From Coprinopsis marcescibilis (taxonomy: Eukaryota; Basidiomycota; Agaricomycetes; Agaricales; Psathyrellaceae), in assembly GCA_004369085.1 (NCBI GenBank), contig ML210585.1, forward strand, positions 1 to 13,695: a stretch of DNA of 13,695 nt. Reading direction: 5' to 3'. The notes under the pieces are model-generated. The model did not search any database. It was given only the letters and a program-made list of their open reading frames with translations, and was not told the origin of the DNA. Shown here piece after piece: positions 1-13,695 of this stretch. A program made the position numbers and the translations under genes. Every line of letters starts with the position of its first letter. Within the stretch, counting starts at the first letter, position 1.

Positions 1-89
1 ACGCGGGGCAACACCCTAGTTTTGGTATATTGCATAATGCATAAGGATTTCAGTCAAAATATGCATTATGAGATATGGGCTAGGCGGGA
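1..89. repeat. Terminal direct repeat, left copy
   Basis: These 89 bases are identical to the last 89 bases of the window (13607-13695). The repeat lies inside the transposon, so its outer ends are not element boundaries. An exact self-overlap of this kind is typical of a circular or looped contig, but it would also arise if two element copies shared exactly this stretch and an assembler broke there. Confidence 0.97.
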
Positions 90-332
90 TGGGACACCTG
101 ATGTTCGGCAAATTTTTAAAAACCATCGCGAAATCCCCAATGAAATGAGTGGTATTTGATCATTATCCCTTGATTTTCTCCGTTTTATGAATACATGAGG
201 TGTACAGCCCAACGCAAGTTGAGCATGAGGCTTTGGGGTATAGAAAGGATTGAGGAACATGTCGCAGCAGTACCTGACCCATTCACACCGATTCTAATTT
301 GTGTCTAATTTTTCTTTACAATGCCCTTTCAG

Positions 333-638
333 CGACTGCCTAACGGACCAGGCCGTTGAGGCCGCAATTGTCGACCAGATCACCTCCGAGAACCAAGCAT
401 CCATTTCCGTCGAGTCAGACGAATCAGACAGCGAAGACGAAGCGTTACCTACAGGTCAGGCAGCATTGGACTTATGCGCAACGATGGAGAAACTTGTCAT
501 TAGCTTGGGGCAGACATGGAGCAGTTTTCTGCTCTGACTACTCATCTCCGTCGCTTCAGGGCACACCTTCGAAGCGATATGCTCAAAAATGCGAAGCAGA
601 CCGTTCTCGACCAGTTCTTCCCGGCCAAAGGGGCCTAA
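333..638 (+). pseudogene. Pogo/Tigger-like transposase C-terminal remnant, frameshifted
   Basis: Only the C-terminal tail of a DDE-type transposase remains. An intron-like acceptor (ccctttcag, ending at 332) precedes an open frame with an acidic Ser/Asp/Glu-rich stretch and then a helical region. The frame breaks in the G run at about 505-511. The following frame continues the family-like tail (MEQFSALTTHLRRFRAHL) to a stop at 636-638. The last residues include QTVLDQFF, which fits the PCNA-interacting box Qxx(L/I/M)xxF(F/Y), a feature described at the C-terminus of pogo-family transposases. The DNA-binding and catalytic domains are absent, so it cannot encode an active enzyme. Identification is by the tail and the flanking inverted repeats. 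Confidence 0.72.
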
Positions 639-726
639 ATTCTGTAATTACCTAATATATATATATTTTCTCACACTTCTCGTACTGAATAATTGTCATA
701 ATGCATAAGGCTATTGGCCGGCCCAA

Positions 727-753
727 CGTTATGCATTATGAGAAATTCAACTG
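727..753 (-). repeat. Terminal inverted repeat, right end of transposon
   Basis: A 27-bp sequence, perfectly inverted relative to 13527-13553, with TA immediately outside (754-755). It contains the palindromic ATGCAT core used repeatedly inside the element. Confidence 0.9.
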
Positions 754-810
754 TATATGAGAAATTTGCTAACTAATTAGACCCGAAGATATATTTACTC
801 ATCATCGAGC

Positions 811-1045
811 TCAGATGCCCCTCCAGGCAGCGAGAGCAGCCCACATCTTGCCAATCTGTCCCCACGTAAAGTGGTTGATGCATACGTCCGATGAATAGTC
901 CATGTAATTCTCTGCCCAGGATCGTTTCAGCTCACGGCATAGTAGCAGAGGGCGCAGGTGGAATTGGTTCATCCGCAGTGGCCTGGCCTGCAACATCATC
1001 GGGCGACAGCGCAAGGGTCACCAATGCAAGGATGGTCAGTTTCAC
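811..1045 (-). pseudogene. M43 pappalysin-like metalloprotease remnant, copy A
   Basis: Only the two ends of a secreted zinc-protease gene survive. At 1045-936 is a hydrophobic signal-peptide-like segment (KLTILALVTLALS) followed by a Pro/Ala-rich stretch. Its expected start codon reads GTG instead of ATG, in a pyrimidine-rich leader context. At 911-811 is the last exon, with the Met-turn motif NYMDYSSDVC and a helical tail ending in TGA. The zinc-binding exons seen in copy B are missing. The junction leaves a donor-like GTGAGC directly overlapping the branch/acceptor part of the old last intron (936-911), a 24-nt gap too short to splice, and the two parts are in different frames. This is a deletion pseudogene. 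Confidence 0.82.
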
Positions 1046-1256
1046 GGCGGAATGTTGGATAAAGGAGGGGTGTATGTTGGCGGATAGGAGTTGTGAGGTT
1101 ATTGGCTTCTGGTGCTTATATGCACGACAAAAGCACGTCCGCACTTATCGTCTAGATTATCATTGAATCCCCTCTACGGGGGTTGTTATTTGACTCACTG
1201 CATATCCGGGGGGACCATCTCTACGACCGCGAATAACAGAACAGGAAACTTCCGAT

Positions 1257-1964
1257 AGCATGAGCAAGATGCCATGATGATCAGGCCTCATTCGTTACTT
1301 CCCCAATATCCGAGCGGCGCTAACGTACGCAACTCCAGCGCTGGCGCCCAACCATATGAACGCGTAGACAGACAACGTGGATTCTTTACCGCATGGAATC
1401 TGACGGTCTCCGAGCATTGCGGGCAAGTGCTGGTTCCGAAAAGCGCGTCGAACGAGCATAAGGCGGGTCATGGCATGTCGCTTAGCACAACGCCGGTGCG
1501 GAGGCATCACCTACTATGCCCTAGACCCTGCTGTTGCAGTCATAAATCAGAATTATTGCAACAGAGAAGTAGAAGCGACGTTACATACCTGACATCAGCG
1601 CCCAAGATATATGTAATCCAGGAGGTATGTGTTTGAGTAGCTTTTAGTCGTCCATACTGCCCTTCGGTGCCAAGGTTCCTGAGCAAGAGGAGCCGATTAC
1701 AACTAAGCTCTTTGGAAGCCGCAATAATGATGCAGAGTAAGCTCTCCGGGAGTCCTGTGGTATAGTGGGCTGTAGGCTGGGCGTGCGTTTTCTCCGACTG
1801 TAATTGTAAAAGCGAGAATAACTTAGATATTGTCTTCTGGCCGGCTACCGTGGACAGTACATCTGAATCGGACACTGAGATTTTTGTACGTTGGAAGATC
1901 GCTTGTGCCCATTCGTACGCCCACACCTATCCGTGCCCTCTGGAATGCACGTAATAACTATATC
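1257..1964. other. Degenerate stretch of copy A, gene not recognised
   Basis: The interval holds short open frames on both strands (for example 1926-1540 and 1510-1295 on the minus strand), but none resembles a family I recognise. About 1257-1687 is shared with copy B. A minus-strand intron-like segment at 1588-1521 (GTATGT to CTAG, 68 nt) has an equally long counterpart at 5721-5654, which suggests an old minus-strand gene. The reading frames flanking it differ between copies and are broken in B. It is probably a pseudogene or a non-coding spacer. Confidence 0.4.
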
Positions 1965-2040
1965 GTATAGGTCAGTGGGTGGAAGTTCGAGTTCAACCAC
2001 TGGCGGCCATTCAGTTTGCAGCACCTAGCGAACAGCTCGA

Positions 2041-2054
2041 GATAAGATAAGATG
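2041..2054 (+). promoter_or_regulatory. Tandem GATAAG motif (copy A)
   Basis: The sequence gataagataagatgtgaat begins here and recurs exactly at 5973-5991 in copy B, where it lies about 100 bp upstream of the proteasome alpha-5 start. GATAA is the core recognised by fungal GATA-type zinc-finger regulators. In copy A it sits downstream of the phosphatase gene, so any function here is doubtful. Confidence 0.35.
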
Positions 2055-2224
2055 TGAATGTCATGTTCCCACCTTTGAGAATGAATCGGCCCAGCTTAGA
2101 TTCACTCTACCACTCTTCAACTTCTGGTTTCCTGCAGCCCTGCGTGGCAAACTATGCTAGCGCCCCTTCGATATTGGATGGTGTTACATTTATATCGCTG
2201 ATACAAAGATCGAAGCTTTCAAGC

Positions 2225-3587
2225 TCAAGTGTATTGCGGGGCTACGTCAACGACCGTCTCGTAGAATTCTTTCAATAACCTCTTCTGTATATCTTTCCCA
2301 GCCTCACCCTACAATGTGAATTAGACCATCATTCCTAGGGAATTATCGAAACGAGACTCACCTGTGAATCACTGATTCCGCGAATAAGCAGATACTTCCG
2401 CCCAGTGAGAACTGCCTCAGTTACGTCTCCAAACTGGTCAGTGCTGATGGTCGATTCCAAAGTCCGGTGCGATCCAGTGACAACACCACCAGCTTCCTGA
2501 ACGAGAACGATTCCAGCGCATACGTCCCAAGGCCACGAGCCGATTTCCCTACAAAACGTACACAAGTCAGTCGAGTTAGAACAGAGCTCAACTAAAAAAA
2601 CAACTAGACTTACCAATAGATATCGACGGCCCCTTGAGCGACTAGAGCACAGTTCAGTGCACCGCTACCGAGCGATCTCAGCGAGTGTGCCATCTTGCCG
2701 AGCGCGACGCCTTTCTCCGGATCACCAGCCAAACGCGAGAAGGAGAGACTTTTCGCGTCGATGCTTGCCGCGTTTCTATCTGAGCCCCATTCGACAGCTA
2801 ATTTGTTCAAGTTAGAGGCATCCCCTGTACTGATATGTATGGCGTACCAATAACTGCCCCATTGAGAGAAAGGAGGGGTTTTGGAAGAGAGGACAGTGGC
2901 AGCTTCCTGGGTTCACCATTATTGCGGCTTAGATGCGCGCCTTGTCCCTTGATTCCGGTATACTGAAAGAAAGGATCAACAGGGCACGCTGAACAAAGAG
3001 ATTGTCGGCGTACTAGGTGGTTGAGGAAAGGGTTGTAGATCAAGCCAATAACTGGCCTTCGTTCATAGATCAGACCCATCGACACGCATACCCAAGGGAT
3101 TCCATGAACGAAATTGGTTGTCCCGTCTAGACAAGAGGTCAATTGGGTCGTAGCACTTCGTATACATCTCGGACATTGTTTCACTAACCGATAGGATCGA
3201 CGCAGAAGGTTGGCTCATCGGTGAGTGGGTCGCGCTTTCCAGCGGAGTACGACTCTTCTCCAATGCTACATGTCGGAATGAGTTTGGGTGGACGTGACGA
3301 AGAGTCAAACCAATCTTAAACAGCCAAACAAAATGAAGCAGCACATACAACTTGAAATTAGGGTACTTCTCTTTGAGCTCGCGTTGGATAAGCTCTTCGA
3401 CGCGGACATCATACTCCGTGACCAAGTCTACCGAATTCTTCTTCTCGTTGACGCCCGTTTCTTGAGACGATGTTGTTTGGATCGCTTCCGATCCTTCAAG
3501 TATCAAATCGCCGGCTTTACGGGCGACAGTGGTGATGAACTGCAAGATGCTCTTCAATTCGTCGCTGGAAAGCTTCTGGTGTGACAT
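2225..3587 (-). CDS. INM1: Inositol monophosphatase
   Basis: Hydrolyses inositol monophosphates to free myo-inositol and phosphate using Mg2+; cytosolic, in inositol recycling and de novo synthesis. Exons on the minus strand are 3587-3349, 3265-3189, 3126-3014, 2962-2848, 2797-2614, 2548-2362 and 2308-2225; phases agree throughout and give 332 aa. Family signatures are intact: IGEES (residues 81-85), DPIDGTTNFVHG (103-114) with both metal-binding Asp residues, and WPWDVCAG (248-255) with the third metal Asp. The start gives MSHQKLSSDELK, the usual helical N-terminus, and the C-terminus (about 300-332) matches the longer fungal form; animal enzymes are nearer 277 aa. Introns are 50-83 nt. The gene looks functional. 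The symbol is by analogy with yeast; some fungal homologues are called QutG-like. Confidence 0.95.
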
Positions 3588-4359
3588 CTTCTGTTGTATT
3601 TTGAAGCCTGGTGGATGGATGGAAATGTGAGCGTTGAGATTGGAGATAACATATAATATAGATCGATAATATCGATGAAACTTTGCACAGCTCTTGGATC
3701 TCAGACAAATTCCCATTGAAACTGTGGCGCATATCGTACAAGTGAGGGTTAACATGTTAACAACCTGTAAAGATACATGCTGGCCGTGTTGCAATCGAAA
3801 AAGATTCCAGAGCCATTTAGGCGGTATATCCAATCCAAATAGAATTAAATTACTGGCCGTGGTCGAAGTCTATCACTTGTTCTGAACCCCATACCCCCTT
3901 CCACCTGTTCCCCGACCAAAGAAGTGCCCGATGTGCGCAATCTGCACGTACTATAAGGCAGTTGTTGCTCAGAGCAGTTTCACATCTGGAAATCTGTTGT
4001 CAAGAGCATTTCATGTAAAGAATCACAACCAGTTGTGCCCGTTCAAACGGTGGGTAATGCGTTGTCTATTTAACCCGCCCACTCATGCCCTCCAATATGC
4101 CGCTTGAACGTTCCCACGACTTTGATCGCCGCCGCACGATCGTCCTCCGGGTTACTCGGACTCAAGTTTGCCTTGCATATTATGTAGGAGCTAGGATCGC
4201 AAGCATTTATCCGGACAAAATGGGTCTGTATGCAATCCATACACGCTGGAATTTAAACGCATTTGCATAGTTTCAACATAGGGAGAAAGGAAGTTTCATG
4301 AGAAATATACATACAGGTGCTAGCATTCCAACTTCTTTGACCGTATGCATAGTGTACTC
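3588..4359. other. Intergenic region with phosphatase upstream sequence
   Basis: No convincing gene. The end next to 3588 should hold the promoter and 5' leader of the minus-strand phosphatase; the leader just upstream of its ATG is C/A-rich. Plus-strand open frames at 3694-3885 and 4085-4270 have no recognisable features. A TATA-like tactataagg occurs at about 3951 on the plus strand, with no gene visible after it. Confidence 0.5.
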
Positions 4360-4405
4360 TTAACTCATTTGCCGAGAAATATACTCATTTTCGAGCTCAG
4401 ATACT

Positions 4406-5441
4406 TCAGGTAGCGAGAGCAGCCCACATCCTGTCCACCTGTCCCCACGTAAAATGGTCTCTGCACACGTCCGATGAATAGTTCATGTAATTCCCTGCCC
4501 ATATTCGTTTCAGCCTATATTTCAAATGGTGAAGCTATACTTTATTGACCGACAGGATCCTCACCAGGCCGACCGGGGCAGGTGTCTGTAGCATCGCATC
4601 CACCGAACACGCCCGTTGAGTTTACTTGCGCGGGGGTGTCTGCAACAAAACCACCACTTGTGTCGCATCCTCCCTAAACCCAACCAAACAACTTCGGTAT
4701 CAACATATCGGAGTTACGCGATGCTTTAACTAACGTCAAAGGTATAGTAGAGCCCAGCCCAGTGTCCAACTTCGTGTATGAGGGACTTCCCAAAGCGATA
4801 TGCGTCGTTGTTGCCAGGTACGACGTTAAACTGCATCACAACTCCGTCGGTCTGTGGCGCAGCTGCGTAGTGCCAGGGAAACTGAGCAAATCCAATGGTC
4901 CGAGATTGTCTGGACTGCATTCAGCCGCCGTAATTTTGTGAGCCGTTAATGCGAGTTAAGGCTCACCCAAGTGTCCACACGTTCAGGGTGCTAGGGCCAC
5001 TAATCCTGGTTCTGGACATCGATATCATTTCAAACCGAAGCCTACAGAGGCATCTTATTGAATTTGCGTAACCTCAACAAAGAAGGGTGACCTACTCCGA
5101 TCCAGATTCATCCTCTATTTGCCTGAACCAAGCAGCATTTTGATAACGCCGAATGTCATCGAGTCTGAAGCTGATGCCTGTGAGGGAGAATCCGACATTT
5201 AGCAGGTCAACGGCCTCCTGGATCTTTGCGTCCCTGTCCGAGTAAAGCCAAATGAAGCGCATGAGGCTCTATCCACGAAGATATCGCACTAAAGGTTGTA
5301 CGTACGCCATATAACCACCATCAGTGGTCTCAGCCTCATAGAAATTGTGATAATACACCAGTAACACGAGCGCTACAAATTGTGCCCCTGGTCTCGGCTC
5401 CTCGGTGAAGGCGCGAAGCTGCTCCTCACGCAAAGACACCT
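4406..5441 (-). pseudogene. M43 pappalysin-like metalloprotease, copy B, 5'-truncated
   Basis: Secreted zinc endopeptidase of the fungal MEP1/pappalysin-like M43 family. Six exons join in phase on the minus strand: 5441-5306, 5233-5096, 5041-4967, 4909-4735, 4673-4550 and 4494-4406, giving about 244 codons with no internal stop. Recognisable parts, in order, are VYYHNFYEAETTDGGYM, the GISF segment, STLNVWTLG, GFAQFPWHYAA, the zinc motif HEVGHWAGLYYTF, GGCDTSGGFVADTPAQVNS, DTCPGRPGEDP and the Met-turn NYMNYSSDVC. The third zinc ligand of HExxHxxGxxH is Tyr (codon TAT, 4746-4744) instead of His. No in-frame ATG or signal peptide lies upstream; the duplicated flank begins at about 5464. The open frame argues for recent decay or an inactive but maintained protein. 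I favour pseudogene. Confidence 0.8.
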
Positions 5442-5463
5442 CTGCCGGCCAGAAGTCACATAG

Positions 5464-5929
5464 AGCATGAGTAGGGAGCCAAGATGATCAGGCCGCATTC
5501 GTTATTTTCCCAATATCCGAGCGGCGCTGGCGCATCCATTCATAAGAGCGCCCAGATAGCGGAGATTTGGTGTCGCATGGGATATGACGGTCTCCGAGCA
5601 TTGCGGACAAGCGCTGGTCGGGACATGTCATGCTGCTGGGCATCGGTTACGCCCTAGGCCCTCCTGCTGCAGTCGTAAATAAGAGCAATCACAACAGAGA
5701 AATCTAAGCGACGTTACATACCTGAGACACAAGGTAGCGTCCAAGATATATGTAATTCAGGAGGTATATGTTTTGAGTTGCATTATTTAGGTGCCATATT
5801 TCCTTTCGGCGCCAAGGTTCCTATGATGAGCAAACAAGTACGCTCTTGTGAAGTTCGTCACTTGCATGCCCTCTTCAAGAAATTTAAACAGGTTTAACCC
5901 TTGGGCAAGCAGCAACTGTTTCATCTAGG
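5464..5929. other. Degenerate stretch of copy B, gene not recognised
   Basis: The counterpart of 1257-1964. It keeps the 68-nt intron-like segment (5721-5654, minus strand), but adjoining frames contain stops and indels relative to copy A. It lies between the 5' end of the protease remnant and the upstream region of the proteasome gene. No product is recognised. Confidence 0.4.
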
Positions 5930-5972
5930 TCGGTGGAGGTAGAGGTTCGTTACCAGCTCAGACTACCAAACA

Positions 5973-5986
5973 GATAAGATAAGATG
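5973..5986 (+). promoter_or_regulatory. Tandem GATAAG motif upstream of proteasome alpha-5
   Basis: Two overlapping GATAAG cores about 100 bp upstream of the ATG at 6090, within a 19-base sequence identical to 2041-2059 although nearby sequence in the two copies has diverged. It is a candidate GATA-factor site; no yeast-style proteasome control element was identified. Confidence 0.4.
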
Positions 5987-6089
5987 TGAATATGATGTTC
6001 CCACGATACGCATACGCGTCCCAGCTTGTGAAAGCAGTAATCATCGAGGCGCGCTGCCACTGCTATACCACCCTTAGACCCTCTACACA

Positions 6090-7142
6090 ATGTTCCTTAC
6101 GCGTTCAGAATACGGTCAGTCTGTCTACTCATACTATTGAAGGATTCAGCTGACTGTTAGCTACGTAGATCGTGGTGTCAACACCTTTTCACCCGAAGGA
6201 CGGTTGTTCCAAGGTCAGAACTGTCATCATAATCTCCGCGAACGAACACTGAAAAGCCAATAGTCGAATATGCAATTGAAGCAATCAAGGTGCCTACTCA
6301 CCTCTTTTGCCAAATGTTCCCGCTCATCGAGAACAGCTAGGATCAACAACAGTAGGAATCAAGACACCAGAAGGTGTGGTCCTCGGCGTCGAGAAGCGTG
6401 TCCAATCACCCCTACTCGAATCCAACTCCATTGAAAAAATCATGGAGATCGACGCCCACCTCGGATGTGCAATGTCAGGGCTAACAGCCGACGCACGAAC
6501 CATGATCGACCATGCTCGCGTTACAGCCCAGAACCACGCTTTCACCTACGACGAACGCATCAAGGTGGAGAGCGTGACACAGGCCGTCTGCGATCTTGCC
6601 CTCCGATTCGGTGAGAGTGTGCACGACGAGGAAGCCATGATGAGTCGGCCGTTCGGCGTAGCCTTGCTGATTGCTGGAATTGATGAGCTTGGCCCACAAC
6701 TGTGAGCCCCTCGTTAACCTTTTGCTCTGTATGGTCCTGATTAATGTCGCATTTTAGTTTCCACACCGACCCATCAGGTACTTTCATTCGATATGAGGCA
6801 AAGGCCATTGGATCTGGATCGGAGGCTGCGCAGGGCGAATTGCAGGATAAATGGCACAAGGTTCGATCTCGTAGAGCGTGTGTGATTGCGCAAAGGGCTA
6901 ATAACTGCCCATCAACAGCAAATGACGCTTAAAGAGGCTCAGATCCTTGCTCTTCGCGTACTAAAGCAAGTCATGGAGGAGAAATTGGATCAACACAACG
7001 TCCAATTGGCTCAGGTAAGATCGCCACCAAGCCGGATGTCCCGATAATGGAACTTACCCTGTATCTCCCCCAGGTGACGCCCTCAAAGGGATTCGAAATT
7101 CTTGACGAAGTAGGGCTCAAAGCGATCATCGAGGAAATGTAA
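6090..7142 (+). CDS. PUP2: 20S proteasome subunit alpha type-5
   Basis: A structural alpha-ring subunit of the 20S core particle, not itself proteolytic; it helps form the substrate gate in cytosol and nucleus. Exons are 6090-6114, 6169-6213, 6264-6289, 6337-6701, 6758-6860, 6919-7014 and 7074-7142, giving 242 aa against 241 in human PSMA5. The N-terminus [20 protein letters not shown] and [17 protein letters not shown] carry the alpha-subunit signature. Further landmarks are VEKR (about 51-54), [46 protein letters not shown] and MTLKEAQ. The first three exons are only 25, 45 and 26 nt. The copy B duplication ends within its upstream region. It converges with the RidA gene, with 226 bp between stop codons. 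Confidence 0.97.
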
Positions 7143-7368
7143 ATTATCCCCAGGCAGCGGAATTGTACTTGTATACGCATCCAACCTCTTGTAAACATGA
7201 CCAATACCGAAAAGACTCATAACGAGCGGTACGTGTCTGAATCGGCGGCCTTGGGAGGGCATGCCATGTCCTCACGGGAACAACGGATCCGACAATTCTG
7301 TACGGTATTACTGTTCAATTGATTGGGGTGCTGGTCATCTAGTATCCAAGTACGTATGCCAACAGCTT
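7143..7368. terminator. Convergent 3' region between PUP2 and RidA genes
   Basis: 226 bases between two facing stop codons, presumably holding both 3' UTRs and polyadenylation signals. I see no definite AATAAA on either strand; aaattatcc just after the PUP2 stop is AT-rich. Confidence 0.35.
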
Positions 7369-8873
7369 TCACATCAAACTAGGAAAGGCTTCGAACAGGA
7401 ACAATGTCAGAACGCCTCAAGGCCCGAAATCAAAGGATCGCGACATACCTGACAATGGCTTCAACCTCTACAAGGACATCTTTCGGAAGTCGGGCAACCT
7501 CAACCGCCGACCGCGCAGGCTTGTGATCACCAAAGAACCTGGCGTAAACGCCGTTTACCGCGACGAAATCGTTCATTGACTTCAAAAAGACCTGGAAAAA
7601 CGGGCGAACACGGGATCGGACAACTCATCAGAACATTGTGCGCTCTAACGGTCGATGGTCACCGGAAAGCACCAGAGATTTGATTATGATTACGATGGAC
7701 GAAATCATGATCAACCCTGTTGGTGCAACTGAACGGAGAGGGTGACATCGGATGCATGCTTACCGTAGTCTTTACGACTTTGCCGAGCTCAGCTCCGCCA
7801 GCTTCGACAACAGCCTTGAGATTCTTGAGGGCTTGCTCAGCCTGGGCCTCGACACCACCCTCGACAATCTCCATCGAGACGGGGTCAAGCGGGATGCATC
7901 CAGAGCAGAAAAGCAAGTTCCCAGCCTTGATACCCTGAGAATAAGGCCCGATGGCAGCTGGGGCTTCTGCAAAGCGCAGATCACAGGGACAGTCACACCG
8001 TATACGGTAGGTAAGGACCACACCATCAGCCATGTTCGCATAGGAGCGGGAACATCGTCCAAGTTCCCCCCCGTTTTTTGTCATCCGATTCGCGAGAAAC
8101 GTTGGGATGTGGTGATGCAGAACGTTATGTTATGCCGTCGAGCGTTGGTTGGTCAATCGGGGTGGCGAGACCGCAAGGCGCCGACCCCAATGAAATGAGC
8201 GTTACCAGTCGGTGTGGTTACACAGATCGTAAGGTGAGGCCACCAGTTTACCACAATCACAGATACACCCGGTGATCCAACCCGAGTATGCCACAATGCC
8301 ATAGTAGCAAGAAGCACAAAATGCCGATCGCATAGGGTTGTCCAGGTCCAAGGATCCAGAACGATTAAAAGATCGAAGCGAAGGATATCAATGTCGTTAT
8401 GAAAAATATGGAAAGAAAAGCCCGTCAGAAACCATTCCGACCCAAATCCGTCAAGAGTACCAGATGGCATGGCACTGAAATTGAGCACTTACGGGATGTA
8501 GAAACCGGAACCAAAGATTCGTGGGTCTTGACCGTTGCAGACGACATGTTCCGTATGCGAATGGGATTAGTACTGTGGTGGTTAAATTCTTGAGTTTTTA
8601 GGCTTGGAGTCTTAAAACCGACGGCGACAGTACAGGACTCACACCAAATGCAGCGATCTCGGTGAGCAAGGTGTCTTTATAGACGTGAAGGTTCGGAATG
8701 AACCAGTGGGGCTCGACGTGAACTACGTGTAGCGGGCGACGAAGGTTAACAACAAAATAAATCCGTCAGTTAGCAAATTATATCGGGTTGCAAATTCTTG
8801 CGTGATGACAACATATGGCAAATGCACTCACGCGTCTGCAACCAGCACCACTGGCAAGTCTGGACACAATCAT
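7369..8873 (-). CDS. MMF1: RidA/YjgF/UK114 family deaminase, mitochondrial-type (Mmf1-like)
   Basis: RidA proteins hydrolyse reactive enamine/imine intermediates (2-aminoacrylate and relatives) released by PLP enzymes; yeast Mmf1 does this in mitochondria. Minus-strand exons are 8873-8832, 8722-8643, 8572-8493, 7966-7764, 7591-7449 and 7378-7369, in phase, 185 aa. Residues 50-185 are the RidA domain: [54 protein letters not shown] with the substrate-carboxylate Arg, and VEVEAI with the catalytic-site Glu. Residues 1-49 lack Asp and Glu, are rich in Arg/Ser/Thr, and include RRFTSS, a plausible presequence with cleavage site. An in-frame TAG lies two codons before the ATG. Intron 3 (8492-7967) is 526 nt and almost free of AG. 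The last exon is 10 nt; without that splice the protein would end a few residues differently. Met50 could start a cytosolic form. Confidence 0.9.
7967..8492 (-). other. Unusually long, AG-depleted intron 3 of the RidA gene
   Basis: The donor is GTAAGT at 8492 and the acceptor CTTTGCAG ends at 7967; phase C|AA gives ...TSQAPAAIG. After the donor's own AG, the coding strand has one AG at 8476-8475 (17 nt in, too close to the donor to use) and then none until the acceptor at 7968-7967. On the plus strand this means no CT from 7969 to 8474. The only CTRAC branch consensus I find is CTGAC at 8428-8424, followed by the pyrimidine-rich ttttctttcc. A weak GTGAC at 7996-7992 lies at a conventional distance from the acceptor. 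Confidence 0.85.
8675..8681 (-). promoter_or_regulatory. TATAAAG inside exon 2 of the RidA gene
   Basis: The minus strand reads TATAAAG here, about 128 nt upstream of Met50. It codes for part of the presequence, but it could also serve a downstream promoter for a transcript encoding the form without presequence. This is inference from the motif alone. Confidence 0.25.
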
Positions 8874-10339
8874 CTCCTATACAAGCAATTCCATTAGAGC
8901 AAGCATTGACTGCACCGCGAACCTGAGTTACCCAAAAAATCTAGACGTGTCCAAGTAACGTTATGACTGCGGTAGATGAGAGCAAGTGGCAGGTAAGGCT
9001 TGTTTGGCCCACCAATGGAAGTCACTCGGATTCGGTACGACCTTACGTTGATAGACTACTTCGCACACTTTCCTTTTTTTACATTTCACACCAGATCCAA
9101 AGAGTCAAATCAAATCTCAATCTCAGGAACGTAAAACTAGTGATAGACATAGACCGGAGCCAACCGCAAAAATCCCGAAACCCCATATTCTGTACACGGC
9201 AGGTTCACCGAACCTTTACGAAGGTTGTAACGCAACACGTACCATCCATACCCGATATGTACAGTTCTTTTGTGTAGCTAGCACGTAAATATGGCGGTTG
9301 GCGCAATTTCTTACTCGACAAAGGGGTACATATGTCAAGCCAGTGCCACCTACAAATTGGCAAGTGGCGGGCACCACGGCGCCAGACTAGCACAGGGCTA
9401 CTCTCGCCGGCGCGTACGCGATCCACCACACTCGGAAGATGATTAAAACAATCTACATCCCAAAAGCAAAGCTCTTTCATTTCCTTAGCACCTTCTTTTA
9501 ATTTATCAATCCCACCTGCAATCACCAAAAGGTTTTTTTTCCTTTCTAGAAATGTGCACATGGGCAGTTAAATTCCATATCATGATTAAGAACACCAGGG
9601 ATGTACCTGACGAGCGGTGTAACGTACAAGCTACGCAAATTTAGAAGAGCCAAGGAAAAGGGATGCGCTGAATTGTGGGTTGTGGTAACGTGAAGGAGGT
9701 ATGTGCTATGCGTGGGGTATGTATTTACATGTTGACGAAAAGAGAGGGGTAACCGAATCGAAGAAGCGAAAACAGAATACATTGTATGAGTTGGGACAAA
9801 AAGCATGAATATCGAAGAGTTTGAAGGCCGTGGGTGTGAAGGCGCGGCGTCCACGTTCGTCCAAGGTAGCGGCGTTCACCGGTCGTTAAAAGCCATGGGG
9901 ATATAGTAAAGGAACTTGGATATTAGAAAGGTTGCCCACGCGTTAAGTAGATTAACCAGAGGTGGCAGCTCAGTAGGAGAGGTACCATATGCCTGAAAAG
10001 AACGAGCGGAGATAAGGTAAAAAGATAAAAGCCGGTGGAAAATAGAGGGCTTAAAGGATGAAAGCACACTAATAAAGGGGTTGTACCAAGACCGAGAGGG
10101 AAGAAAGACGAAGTTCGGGATGGGTCGAATGGTTTCAATGGGGTGGGAACCAGGAGAGAACTAGGTGCAGTTTCTGTGTCCGTTTGGTGTCAAAGTGCGT
10201 GCGGAAATTTCCACTCCGGTGCCGATTGAGTTATGTCGCCTGGGGTGGAGTCTGTTGGCGTCTGGGATGGATGCGTCACAACAGCAATGTCCGCGCAATA
10301 CGCCGACAAAAGTGCGGCTTTGAGGCTTCTTTTATCCCC
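8874..10339. other. Intergenic region with a purine-biased stretch
   Basis: About 1.47 kb between the 5' end of the RidA gene and the 3' end of the G-alpha gene. From about 9640 to 10160 the plus strand is strongly purine-biased, so the minus strand resembles the pyrimidine-rich leaders common in fungal promoters. Minus-strand open frames at 9205-9561, 9546-9854 and 9876-10138 and the plus frame 8963-9277 have no recognisable domain, and I found no convincing spliced gene. A small unannotated gene or a non-coding transcript reading leftward is possible. Confidence 0.4.
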
Positions 10340-12973
10340 TTAAACCAGTCGCATATTCCGTAAGTTGCCTTTGATGATGATATCTCTCACTGAAAAAGGA
10401 AGGCGAAAGAGTGTCAGCATCCACTAAAGCTCCCATATCGACAAATAAGCGACGGCACGCACCACTGGAGATTATAATAGCCGTTCGTCTGGTGTCTGTC
10501 ACTGCCGTGAGATGAACTGTAACACGGTCGACTTAGATCTCCGGCGGTATGACAGCAATGGAAACAAGCACTCACTGTACAGCTCACGCTCCTTATTAGA
10601 CGAATACGAGTGATGCAGAGCCCCAAACTTGTGTCGGAAATCTAGAAAGGTTGTCAAAACGGCGCGTGTCAGACAGTCAATAGAAATACAACGAACATTT
10701 TGACACCGAATCATAGTCGTTCGGTCTATCGCCATACGAGACCATGTGTTGATTTAACCTTACACCAGCGTCAAGTTTCGCCTTGAATCGATCGGGTCAG
10801 CAGCCTTGTGCGCATGGACATTGAGGGGTTCCATACCTGGAGAAGATCGCATTTGTTCAAAAATAGAACAATGCTCACATTGACCAGAAGTTTGTTCGAA
10901 ACCACCGACTTCCACAGGAGGAGTGAATCCTCTAATCGGTTCACGCGAAAATCCTGGAGGGTGACGCGTTAGTTCGGCACAATGCGTTGCTACTTGGCGA
11001 CAAGTACCTCTGTCAACACCTGAAAATTTAACGAATGTCAGCATCTGGCGCTTGAAAGTGGAGTTGGTACAAACCTGATCAAATGCCGAAATCGGCGCAA
11101 GGAAGATGATAGCGTTAACTGCAATGCCCACGTCATTAGTTAATTTTGACATTAGGGGTACCATTAGCTTGGTTAATACCGCACGCACCAGTATCAAAGT
11201 AGGGAGCCCAGGCCTGCCTCTGATTGCGGGCACCTCCAACATCGTAAATCCGCCATTCGACACCCCTATTGGTACCAGAAGGAATGGTGAACGTATGCTC
11301 CACCACACCCATGGTTTTCAGTCGTGCCTTTAGGACATCCGCTGTCAGAAGATAAGGATTAGACCGTCTTCCGCTCAGCACGTATGTGGAAAATCCAAGG
11401 CGCACCATCTGTCGGAATGTATTTCTTGGCGGTTATTCTTGGTATCTCGTCAAGGTAGCTATGGCGTGGGTGGTTAGGGATTAGTGCCGCAAGAATCTAC
11501 TCGGGTTTGGCTCACAATCCGCTGCTCTCTTCAAGGCGAATTCTCTTCTCATTGAGAGATTGCCTGACGTTTGGATCTCGCCATAGTTCCATCATGGCGG
11601 AGGCACAGGCATTCAAAGAATGGACAGGATCCTCTGGGTCTTCCCACCAGCCTTCGATTTCGCCCGAATTTGGACTCTTCGGACTTTTCGAACGGTCGGT
11701 AAGCGTGAAAGGTTTCTTCCAGTTGTGTCTTTGGTGCACAACGACTTCTTTGCCATTGATCGTATTCACAACACTTCTTGGATTGGCTTGAGCGGAGACA
11801 TAGTTCTGTCTTTTTGAGTCTGGGATTACGATTGTTGGCGCCGGTCTGCCGGACTGCAAGCGTCCGTTGAGTTGTGGCGGTTGATTCTCCGTGCCGTTGA
11901 ATGGCTGGTAGTTGGCCCAGCCAGGAGGTGATGGGCCAAGCCGCGTTGCTTCGTCTTCGTCCTGTGAAGAGAGCAGCCGAGTGAGACGATCCTCCAGCTC
12001 CGCTAGGGGCTCCAGCCGTCGACGATAGCTCTCATAATGGGGAACCCTTGTTCCTAATATAGCGTCGGGTGGACGTCCCTTGGAGGTAATGTCGATGTAG
12101 CCTCCTTGAGTAGGCTCGACCTCTTCTTGATCATAGACCACATCTGACTCAGGAGCCAGTGATTCGAGGATTCTGAATAGTTAAAAGGTAGTGACATAAG
12201 GCTCAGTCAGAAGACCGGAGCCAATTCCTTGGTAACATGCCAAAACATACCTTCTTATAGATCGCACCAAATTTAGATAGATTACGGTCCTCCATGCGAT
12301 TCTTTCAGCGTGAAATGCTGCTGGCGTATGTAGAAGCTGGAACTCTGTCAAAGGGAAGCGTGCGTTAGTCGACTTGTCAATGTCGCGGGTTGAGAGTGGA
12401 TGCAAATAAACAATGTGTGCGTGCAGGGAGAAAGAGTGGTACCGCCGCTTTGTGTAATAGCGACTTGGTCACTAGATTACGCGAATGCGTTGCGCGGCGA
12501 TGATTACGGTGTGCTGTGGCGGAAGCACGGCAACGCGAGCGAGCATTATCGCGATGGAAATAATGCCATATGGGGTTGCATGCGATATGGGCTGGTCATC
12601 CCTGTATCCCTGCACAACATTCAAGGCCCCCGACGCACAGCAAACGCCGACGGTGTTGTCTCGAGTGTCGACGGATAGCGAAGAACGAAAGATGACCAGG
12701 AGAGCGAATATAACACATACGCTTGAGGGTAGTACTCTTGCCAGACTCTGACTGGCCCAAGAGCAGGACATTGACCTCTGGGCGTGTCTTCTTCTTCTCG
12801 ATCCTCTCCTGGCGAAGAATCTCGTCGATGTGCTCGCTGACCTTGCGAGCATCCTGCTCGGCCTTGATCCTGTTCTCGCGGTCGATGGGGGACTCATTGG
12901 GTGGGGGGATGAGAGCCATGGTGAGGGGGTCTGATATTGTGCGGCGACGTCGATCATGGTTGGGCTTGAGCAT
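10340..12973 (-). CDS. Atypical heterotrimeric G-protein alpha subunit
   Basis: GTP-binding alpha subunit relaying receptor signals, of the long divergent class expanded in agaricomycetes. Minus-strand exons are 12973-12721, 12344-12251, 12172-11516, 11458-11406, 11341-11189, 11118-11075, 11019-11008, 10953-10837, 10781-10697, 10641-10576, 10516-10463 and 10389-10340, in phase, 545 aa against about 350 normally. The P-loop is GQSESGKS (73-80); switch I keeps the catalytic Arg (R359 in ARLKTMG); switch II reads DVGGARNQR, with Ala390 where the catalytic Gln is expected; NKCD (455-458) is the guanine-specificity motif. The G5 segment is TAVTDT in place of TCAT. The N-terminus (MLKPNHDRRRR) lacks MGxxxS myristoylation, and the end NMRLV lacks the usual Cys. 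Roughly 150 extra residues, Pro/Ser-rich and probably disordered, lie in the helical domain. Intron 1 is 376 nt; exon 7 is 12 nt. Confidence 0.94.
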
Positions 12974-13524
12974 TGTGAGCTAGTACGAGGGGGACAAGAA
13001 GAATGTAGAGTGAAGGAATAACGAAAATATATGGAAACCACCAGGACCTGCCAGTGGTCCGGTGGAAGCTTCCATTAGCGCGTGGGGATACAGAGTCCCA
13101 CGTGAACGGAACCTTCTGTCGGAGTTTGAATCCAAATCGGCAGTTCCTCCGCCGTCCAACGTTGTCTGGGCAATACGACCTTGTCCTCTGATCCTCGTCA
13201 ATCTGTATCCTTGAAAGAACAAGGATGACCCTAGGATATCTTCAATATCCTCCAAATCCACCTCACAGTCGCTGTGAACTGCGGCCTCCATCGCAACCTG
13301 TCAGATCCACCGCCAAACCAACGTAATATGTCCATAAACACCCATGTCAACCCGATTGACCATTTGTCCGTGCTTTCTGGGACTTCGGTCTTTTGCGCTT
13401 CGGATTGGTTATCTCCTGCCGATTTGGTGGGCACCGTCGCGGAGCAAATAGCAAGCGCCCTTGCGACAAATTTGGTTACTTCTTAATGAAAGAATGTTCC
13501 AAATGACCAAATACCTGACATACA
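12974..13524 (-). promoter_or_regulatory. Upstream region of the G-alpha gene
   Basis: The 50 bases before the ATG on the minus strand are pyrimidine-rich (ttccttcactctac, ttcttcttgtccccctcg), a common fungal leader. A CACGTG E-box lies at 13099-13104. Open frames at 12980-13291 and 13231-13434 (minus) and 13274-13486 (plus) have no recognisable features. Beyond about 13300 I see nothing definite before the transposon at 13525. Confidence 0.45.
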
Positions 13525-13526
13525 TA

Positions 13527-13553
13527 CAGTTGAATTTCTCATAATGCATAACG
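13527..13553 (+). repeat. Terminal inverted repeat, left end of transposon
   Basis: A 27-bp perfect inverted match to 727-753, starting CAGTTGAATTTCTC, with TA immediately outside (13525-13526). Confidence 0.9.
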
Positions 13554-13606
13554 TAATCATGCATAATTCTCATAATGCATACAATTTTGGTTGGTCCCGT
13601 GGTGGG

Positions 13607-13695
13607 ACGCGGGGCAACACCCTAGTTTTGGTATATTGCATAATGCATAAGGATTTCAGTCAAAATATGCATTATGAGATATGGGCTAGGCGGGA
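13607..13695. repeat. Terminal direct repeat, right copy
   Basis: Identical over 89 bases to positions 1-89; the match runs to the last base of the window. Confidence 0.97.

Follow-up and report, generated by a model that had tools for sequence, protein, structure and literature searches.

The first intron of the RidA gene of Coprinopsis marcescibilis (Agaricales, Psathyrellaceae) is very probably, judging from its sequence, a distant-branch-point intron with an AG exclusion zone: it would be spliced from a branch adenine at position 8425 (A8425), its acceptor would be found by a search for the first AG, and selection would act against AG in between. Positions are those of the window, the whole stretch of 13,695 nt that was analysed (contig ML210585.1, positions 1 to 13,695, forward strand).

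The RidA gene and its splice junctions

The gene lies on the minus strand and has the following exons, with intron 1 and its splice sites:

8493..8547, minus strand: RidA exon 1, 55 nt, with exact splice to protein P0001 and an N-terminus matching C. cinerea P0002
7967..8492, minus strand: RidA intron 1, bounded by exons spliced to P0001
8487..8492, minus strand: donor GTAAGT, the sole GTRNGY within RidA intron 1
7967..7970, minus strand: acceptor GCAG of intron 1, exact splice to P0001
7764..7966, minus strand: RidA exon 2, splice to P0001
7449..7591, minus strand: RidA exon 3, splice to P0001
7379..7388, minus strand: RidA exon 4, stop codon included, splice to P0001

Once spliced, these exons yield, letter for letter and stop included, the 136-aa public C. 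marcescibilis protein P0001 (100% identity in a protein search), which matches Pfam PF01042, a domain that we take to be the RidA/YjgF family. The matching N-termini of P0001 and of C. cinerea P0002 give good support to exon 1 and to the junction that joins it to exon 2. RidA orthologues are also present in Coprinellus micaceus, Candolleomyces aberdarensis and Ephemerocybe angulata (P0004-P0006). By the public gene model the 8493|7966 junction is correct, as the initial annotation of this DNA had proposed, since splicing there reproduces P0001 exactly. RidA-like genes elsewhere in the genome amounted to two weak matches (C5 and C1).

Neighbouring genes in the window match a proteasome subunit (6280-6705, plus strand, PF00227) and the inositol monophosphatase family (3063-3869, minus strand, PF00459). 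The contig ends, 1-89 and 13607-13695, are identical over 89 nt and carry CATAATGCATAA-type repeats, and a perfect 31-nt inverted repeat joins 726-756 to 13524-13554; the end repeats may belong to a mobile element at which the assembly broke. Diverged direct repeats link 788-2072 with 4374-6004; the pieces are 29-111 nt long, match at 80-94% and are spaced by about 3.6 to 4.2 kb. Such a chain suggests either an ancient segmental duplication or an element present in two copies.

An AG-free zone ends at the acceptor of intron 1

On the coding strand of intron 1, AG occurs at 8489-8488 (within the GTAAGT donor), at 8476-8475 and at the acceptor, 7968-7967, and nowhere else. The interval between the last two is a zone without AG:

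7969..8474, minus strand: AG-free zone, 506 nt, 0 AG

The initial annotation had described exactly this, zero AG from 8474 down to 7969 with the acceptor as the next AG, and the count bears it out. Measured from start to start the gap is 508 nt, and the AG-free region directly upstream of the acceptor, at 506 nt, compares with the at least 100 nt by which the distant-branch-point class is recognised. Upstream of the zone only 18 nt of the intron remain, with two AGs, one of them in the donor. Inside the zone there are 40 AG on the plus strand and 28 GA on the coding strand, so that the lack is specific to strand and order; base counts over 8475-7969 are balanced (97 A, 133 C, 125 G, 152 T), and the further claim of a strand-specific feature that is not low complexity thus holds as well. 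Since no AG but the acceptor follows 8475, the donor has no alternative AG acceptor except the AG at 8476-8475, which precedes the predicted branch site.

Chance and causes unrelated to splicing explain the zone poorly

From the base composition of the zone 23.9 AGs would be expected, with P(0) about 10^-13.5, and from the genome rate of one per 16, 32 AGs (P 3e-15), close to the figure of about 30 given in the initial annotation. The argument against chance is weakened by the lower AG content of introns compared with this genome as a whole. In 66 ab initio introns AG occurs once per 27.7 nt ahead of the predicted branch site, a rate at which 18 AGs would be expected in the zone (P 8e-9); at that of RidA intron 2 (one per 28.7) P is 2e-8, and at the lowest rate seen, one per 41.8 in the intron of a G-alpha gene, 12 would be expected (506/41.8; P 5e-6). 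Chance is therefore a poor explanation at any AG rate used, the value of 5e-6 being less extreme when taken over many long introns.

Gap lengths were also compared directly. The longest AG-to-AG gap among 31,588 gaps on both strands of a genome sample (25 stretches of 10 kb, 250 kb in all with 385 N) was 188 nt, and extrapolation of the gap-length tail gives 1.2e-5 AG gaps of 508 or more per genome. In the window itself the AG gaps that rank next measure 209 (minus strand) and 140 (plus strand), and the longest gap of any other dinucleotide in the set scanned (GA/TC, GT/AC, CA/TG, GC and CG) is 178. The 20 AG gaps of at least 130 nt in the first 200 kb, the longest again 188, were examined together with branch scores and downstream open frames, and no class was drawn from them.

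We give almost no credence to a cause outside splicing for the missing AGs, be it chance, low complexity, an RNA element, a repeat or an antisense gene. The lower AG rates of introns here (66 ab initio introns, G-alpha intron) speak for it; against it, P is still 5e-6 at one AG per 41.8, the composition is balanced, and searches for a repeat, a coding region, an RNA element and a fold gave the following. The sole genome match of the intron is the intron itself (36.3-Mb genome, 448 contigs; the search skips very common words), which led us to reject a repeat or introner copy. A search for related DNA gave no hit in viral contigs or plasmids. Coding as the cause was likewise rejected, as the open reading frames at 7746-8198 and 8015-8275 (plus strand) and 8153-8488 (minus strand) have no Pfam match. 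Intron ATGs at 8084 and 8033 are followed by an open frame on into exon 2, on which we did not build, because AG-free DNA cannot hold TAG and an open frame in it comes cheap. No Rfam match reached the gathering level, and none appeared at E up to 2 for 7900-8600. In structure prediction the part between branch and acceptor (8418-7967) gave z -0.28, with 37 of 100 shuffles folding at least as well; a fold no better than that of shuffles suggests no special path-shortening hairpin.

A predicted branch site near the 5' end of the zone

We derived a branch-site matrix from short introns called ab initio with looser thresholds in a 200 kb sample plus the window (130 introns, 9 of them in the window), a set that surely contains wrong introns. 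Removal of the window introns, of lengths outside 46-75 nt and of duplicates left 100 for training, and 66 of these, with a branch score of at least 4, served for AG counts. Unsupervised motif search in the 100 introns, all from outside the window, returned TNCTGAY, close to the CTRAY branch motif described for Fusarium in an excerpt of PMC5677156. In 56 of the 100, the start of the best motif lies 16-24 nt ahead of the intron end. When applied to intron 1, the matrix and a scan for pyrimidine tracts gave:

8424..8430, minus strand: predicted distant branch site TTCTGAC, branch A 8425, the best of the intron (7.77 of at most 8.20 bits)
8401..8420, minus strand: pyrimidine tract CTTTTCTTTCCATATTTTTC, the best 20-nt tract of RidA intron 1
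8025..8031, minus strand: rival branch site GGCTGAT, branch A 8026, 6.38 bits, 59 nt from the acceptor

From A8425 it is 67 nt back to the donor and 458 nt onward to the acceptor, and the tract CTTTTCTTTCCATATTTTTC begins 5 nt after this A. Near its 5' end the zone has, as in introns of the distant-branch-point class, a good branch motif with an adjacent pyrimidine tract. Among 1000 AG-free Markov sequences simulated with the dinucleotide statistics of the zone, none held an equal combination of site and following tract; taken singly, an equal branch score arose in 238 and an equal tract in 21. The initial annotation had placed the branch at this CTGAC, about 67 nt from the donor and about 458 from the acceptor, and as a prediction this is supported, given the best matrix score and the best tract following it. 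Its statement that the CTGAC at 8428-8424 is the sole CTRAC also stands, while a second CTRAY, the CTGAT at 8029-8025, had gone unmentioned.

That second motif underlies the main rival site. If the proximal GGCTGAT were used (A8026, 59 nt from the acceptor), the AG-free stretch upstream would be a matter of chance or local composition. Its 6.38 bits, near the 75th percentile of the best sites of training introns, argue for this reading, which we nevertheless consider unlikely: it leaves about 450 AG-free nt upstream unexplained, the site scores below A8425 and has no strong tract after it, and in none of the 100 training introns does the best motif start more than 50 nt from the end, a weak test in introns of only 46-75 nt. 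Closer still to the acceptor (A within 58 nt) the best site scores 1.97 bits. Shuffled introns have a higher best score in the median (3.37), and in the training set 1.97 bits would fall between the 5th and 10th percentiles.

Two more sites in intron 1 score 4.84 bits (A8388) and 5.28 bits (A8153), and several branch points (8425, 8388, 8153 and 8026) could be used along the zone, as in some vertebrate genes, with the most distal setting its extent. These extra sites favour such a multiple arrangement, which would itself still require a distal branch point; the strong tract stands beside A8425 only, and we regard the arrangement as quite improbable.

Control introns and the first-AG rule

Three other introns in the window served as controls for the predicted use of A8425:

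7592..7763, minus strand: RidA intron 2, 172 nt, branch site near the acceptor
7389..7448, minus strand: RidA intron 3, 60 nt, with the same TTCTGAC heptamer as intron 1
12345..12720, minus strand: G-alpha gene intron, 376 nt, a long control with 9 AGs before the acceptor

The Pfam G-alpha match runs across the spliced junction of the last. In all three the branch motif lies 18-36 nt from the acceptor, the acceptor is the first AG more than 3 nt past the branch A (at +35 in RidA intron 2, +17 in RidA intron 3 and +19 in the G-alpha intron), and AGs occur upstream. In RidA intron 2, AGs precede the predicted branch A by 132, 102, 90, 18 and 16 nt, and one more follows it by 3 nt; this last one is covered by the observation that an AG very near the branch A may be bypassed (excerpt of PMC1431707). 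In RidA intron 3 the first AG after TTCTGAC is the acceptor, and all 9 AGs of the G-alpha intron precede its predicted branch A. Because the controls carry AGs, longer introns here are not AG-free in general.

Two side observations concern the controls themselves. The acceptor of RidA intron 3 is GAAG rather than YAG (7389-7390, minus strand, public gene model), and a CCTAG 10 nt downstream is unused. The G-alpha intron (12345-12720, minus strand) has one AG per 42 nt, compared to one per 16 genome-wide, and long introns of C. marcescibilis may show a mild general avoidance of AG.

The initial annotation had also proposed an AG count over all introns of the genome; the count made, on the 66 ab initio introns, gave the one AG per 27.7 upstream of the branch used above. 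AG density after the predicted branch A was little lower than before it (28 in 940 compared to 67 in 1853). No AG followed the branch A in 46 of the 66 introns; 20 had one or more, 15 of the 28 AGs falling within 6 nt and 13 farther away. These AGs count against a strict rule, and wrong introns or wrong branch calls may explain them. The rule that the first downstream AG is normally used, as stated in the initial annotation, fits the three control introns.

Comparison with known distant branch points

Vertebrate exons with distant branch points and AG exclusion zones include PTB exon 11, GABBR1 exon 23 and alpha-tropomyosin exon 3 (Gooding et al., 2006, PMC1431707, excerpt). In the model set out there, the first step needs no more than a branch site and a pyrimidine tract, and the nearest AG downstream is then taken in the second; mapped cases have 100-400 nt between distant branch point and acceptor, and larger predicted ones reach -566 in Fugu PTB and a human zone of 1126 nt (same excerpt). 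Like the cases described there, the zone of RidA intron 1 is long and ends at the acceptor, with motif and tract near its 5' end and, in the 18 nt of intron left upstream, two AGs. Unlike them it belongs to a basidiomycete, and its predicted 458 nt exceed the mapped range while falling short of the largest predictions. The vertebrate cases, as far as that excerpt goes, are mostly alternative exons, whereas no alternative splicing is known for RidA intron 1.

With ordinary short introns of C. marcescibilis, RidA intron 1 shares the GTAAGT donor, the CTGAC motif and the 67 nt from donor to branch; it differs in an acceptor 458 nt from the predicted branch, compared to no more than about 45 nt in the 100 ab initio introns, which are 46-75 nt long. 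In certain yeast introns, hairpins shorten the path from branch to acceptor (excerpt of PMC12350175). RidA intron 1 resembles the introns of that excerpt in having a long distance to bridge and differs from them in having no structure beyond shuffled expectation and no AGs that need hiding.

Among the literature matches listed, from a collection with few subscription journals, no title or opening of an abstract describes a distant branch point or an extended AG exclusion zone in a fungus, which falls short of proving absence. RidA intron 1 probably adds to an established class one of its longer members, from a kingdom in which such an intron is unusual.

Proposed mechanism and significance

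The exact junction, the AG-free zone, the branch motif, its tract and the pattern of the controls can be read directly from the DNA; from them we infer use of A8425, a linear search and selection on the zone. U2 snRNP would select the TTCTGAC site with the help of the pyrimidine tract that follows at 8420-8401, and the first step would proceed at A8425 (67 nt past the donor) just as it does in short fungal introns of the ordinary kind. For the second step the acceptor would be whichever AG comes first downstream, here the one at 7968-7967 after 458 nt. An AG newly arising in between would turn into a wrong acceptor and leave intron sequence in the RidA mRNA, so that selection would keep the stretch from branch to acceptor AG-free; this would explain the exclusion zone.

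The genome has profile matches above cut-off to the second-step families Slu7, Prp18 and Fyv6/FAM192A; the Slu7 match has one TGA inside, perhaps an intron, and the Fyv6/FAM192A match is partial. In yeast, second-step factors of these types favour distal acceptors, and AG depletion between branch point and acceptor is stated with data not shown (excerpt of PMC11651659).

If the branch is as predicted, a fungal spliceosome finds an acceptor 458 nt away, far above the 20-30 nt that are the optimal branch-to-acceptor distance in S. cerevisiae (excerpt of PMC8496845). The interval might also be regulatory: a basidiomycete spliceosome would regularly make a first-AG search over about 460 nt, RidA splicing would depend on how well its second step spans that distance, and RidA expression would thereby follow second-step capacity or growth state. 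We put this forward tentatively and as doubtful, by analogy: the role is plausible because the vertebrate cases investigated have regulatory elements within this interval (excerpt of PMC1431707). The zone would be a trace left by selection in nature, about 460 nt long, where even one added AG should do harm, and RidA intron 1 would offer a clean substrate for studying how the second step of splicing locates the acceptor, in a genus to which C. cinerea, a tractable laboratory relative, also belongs.
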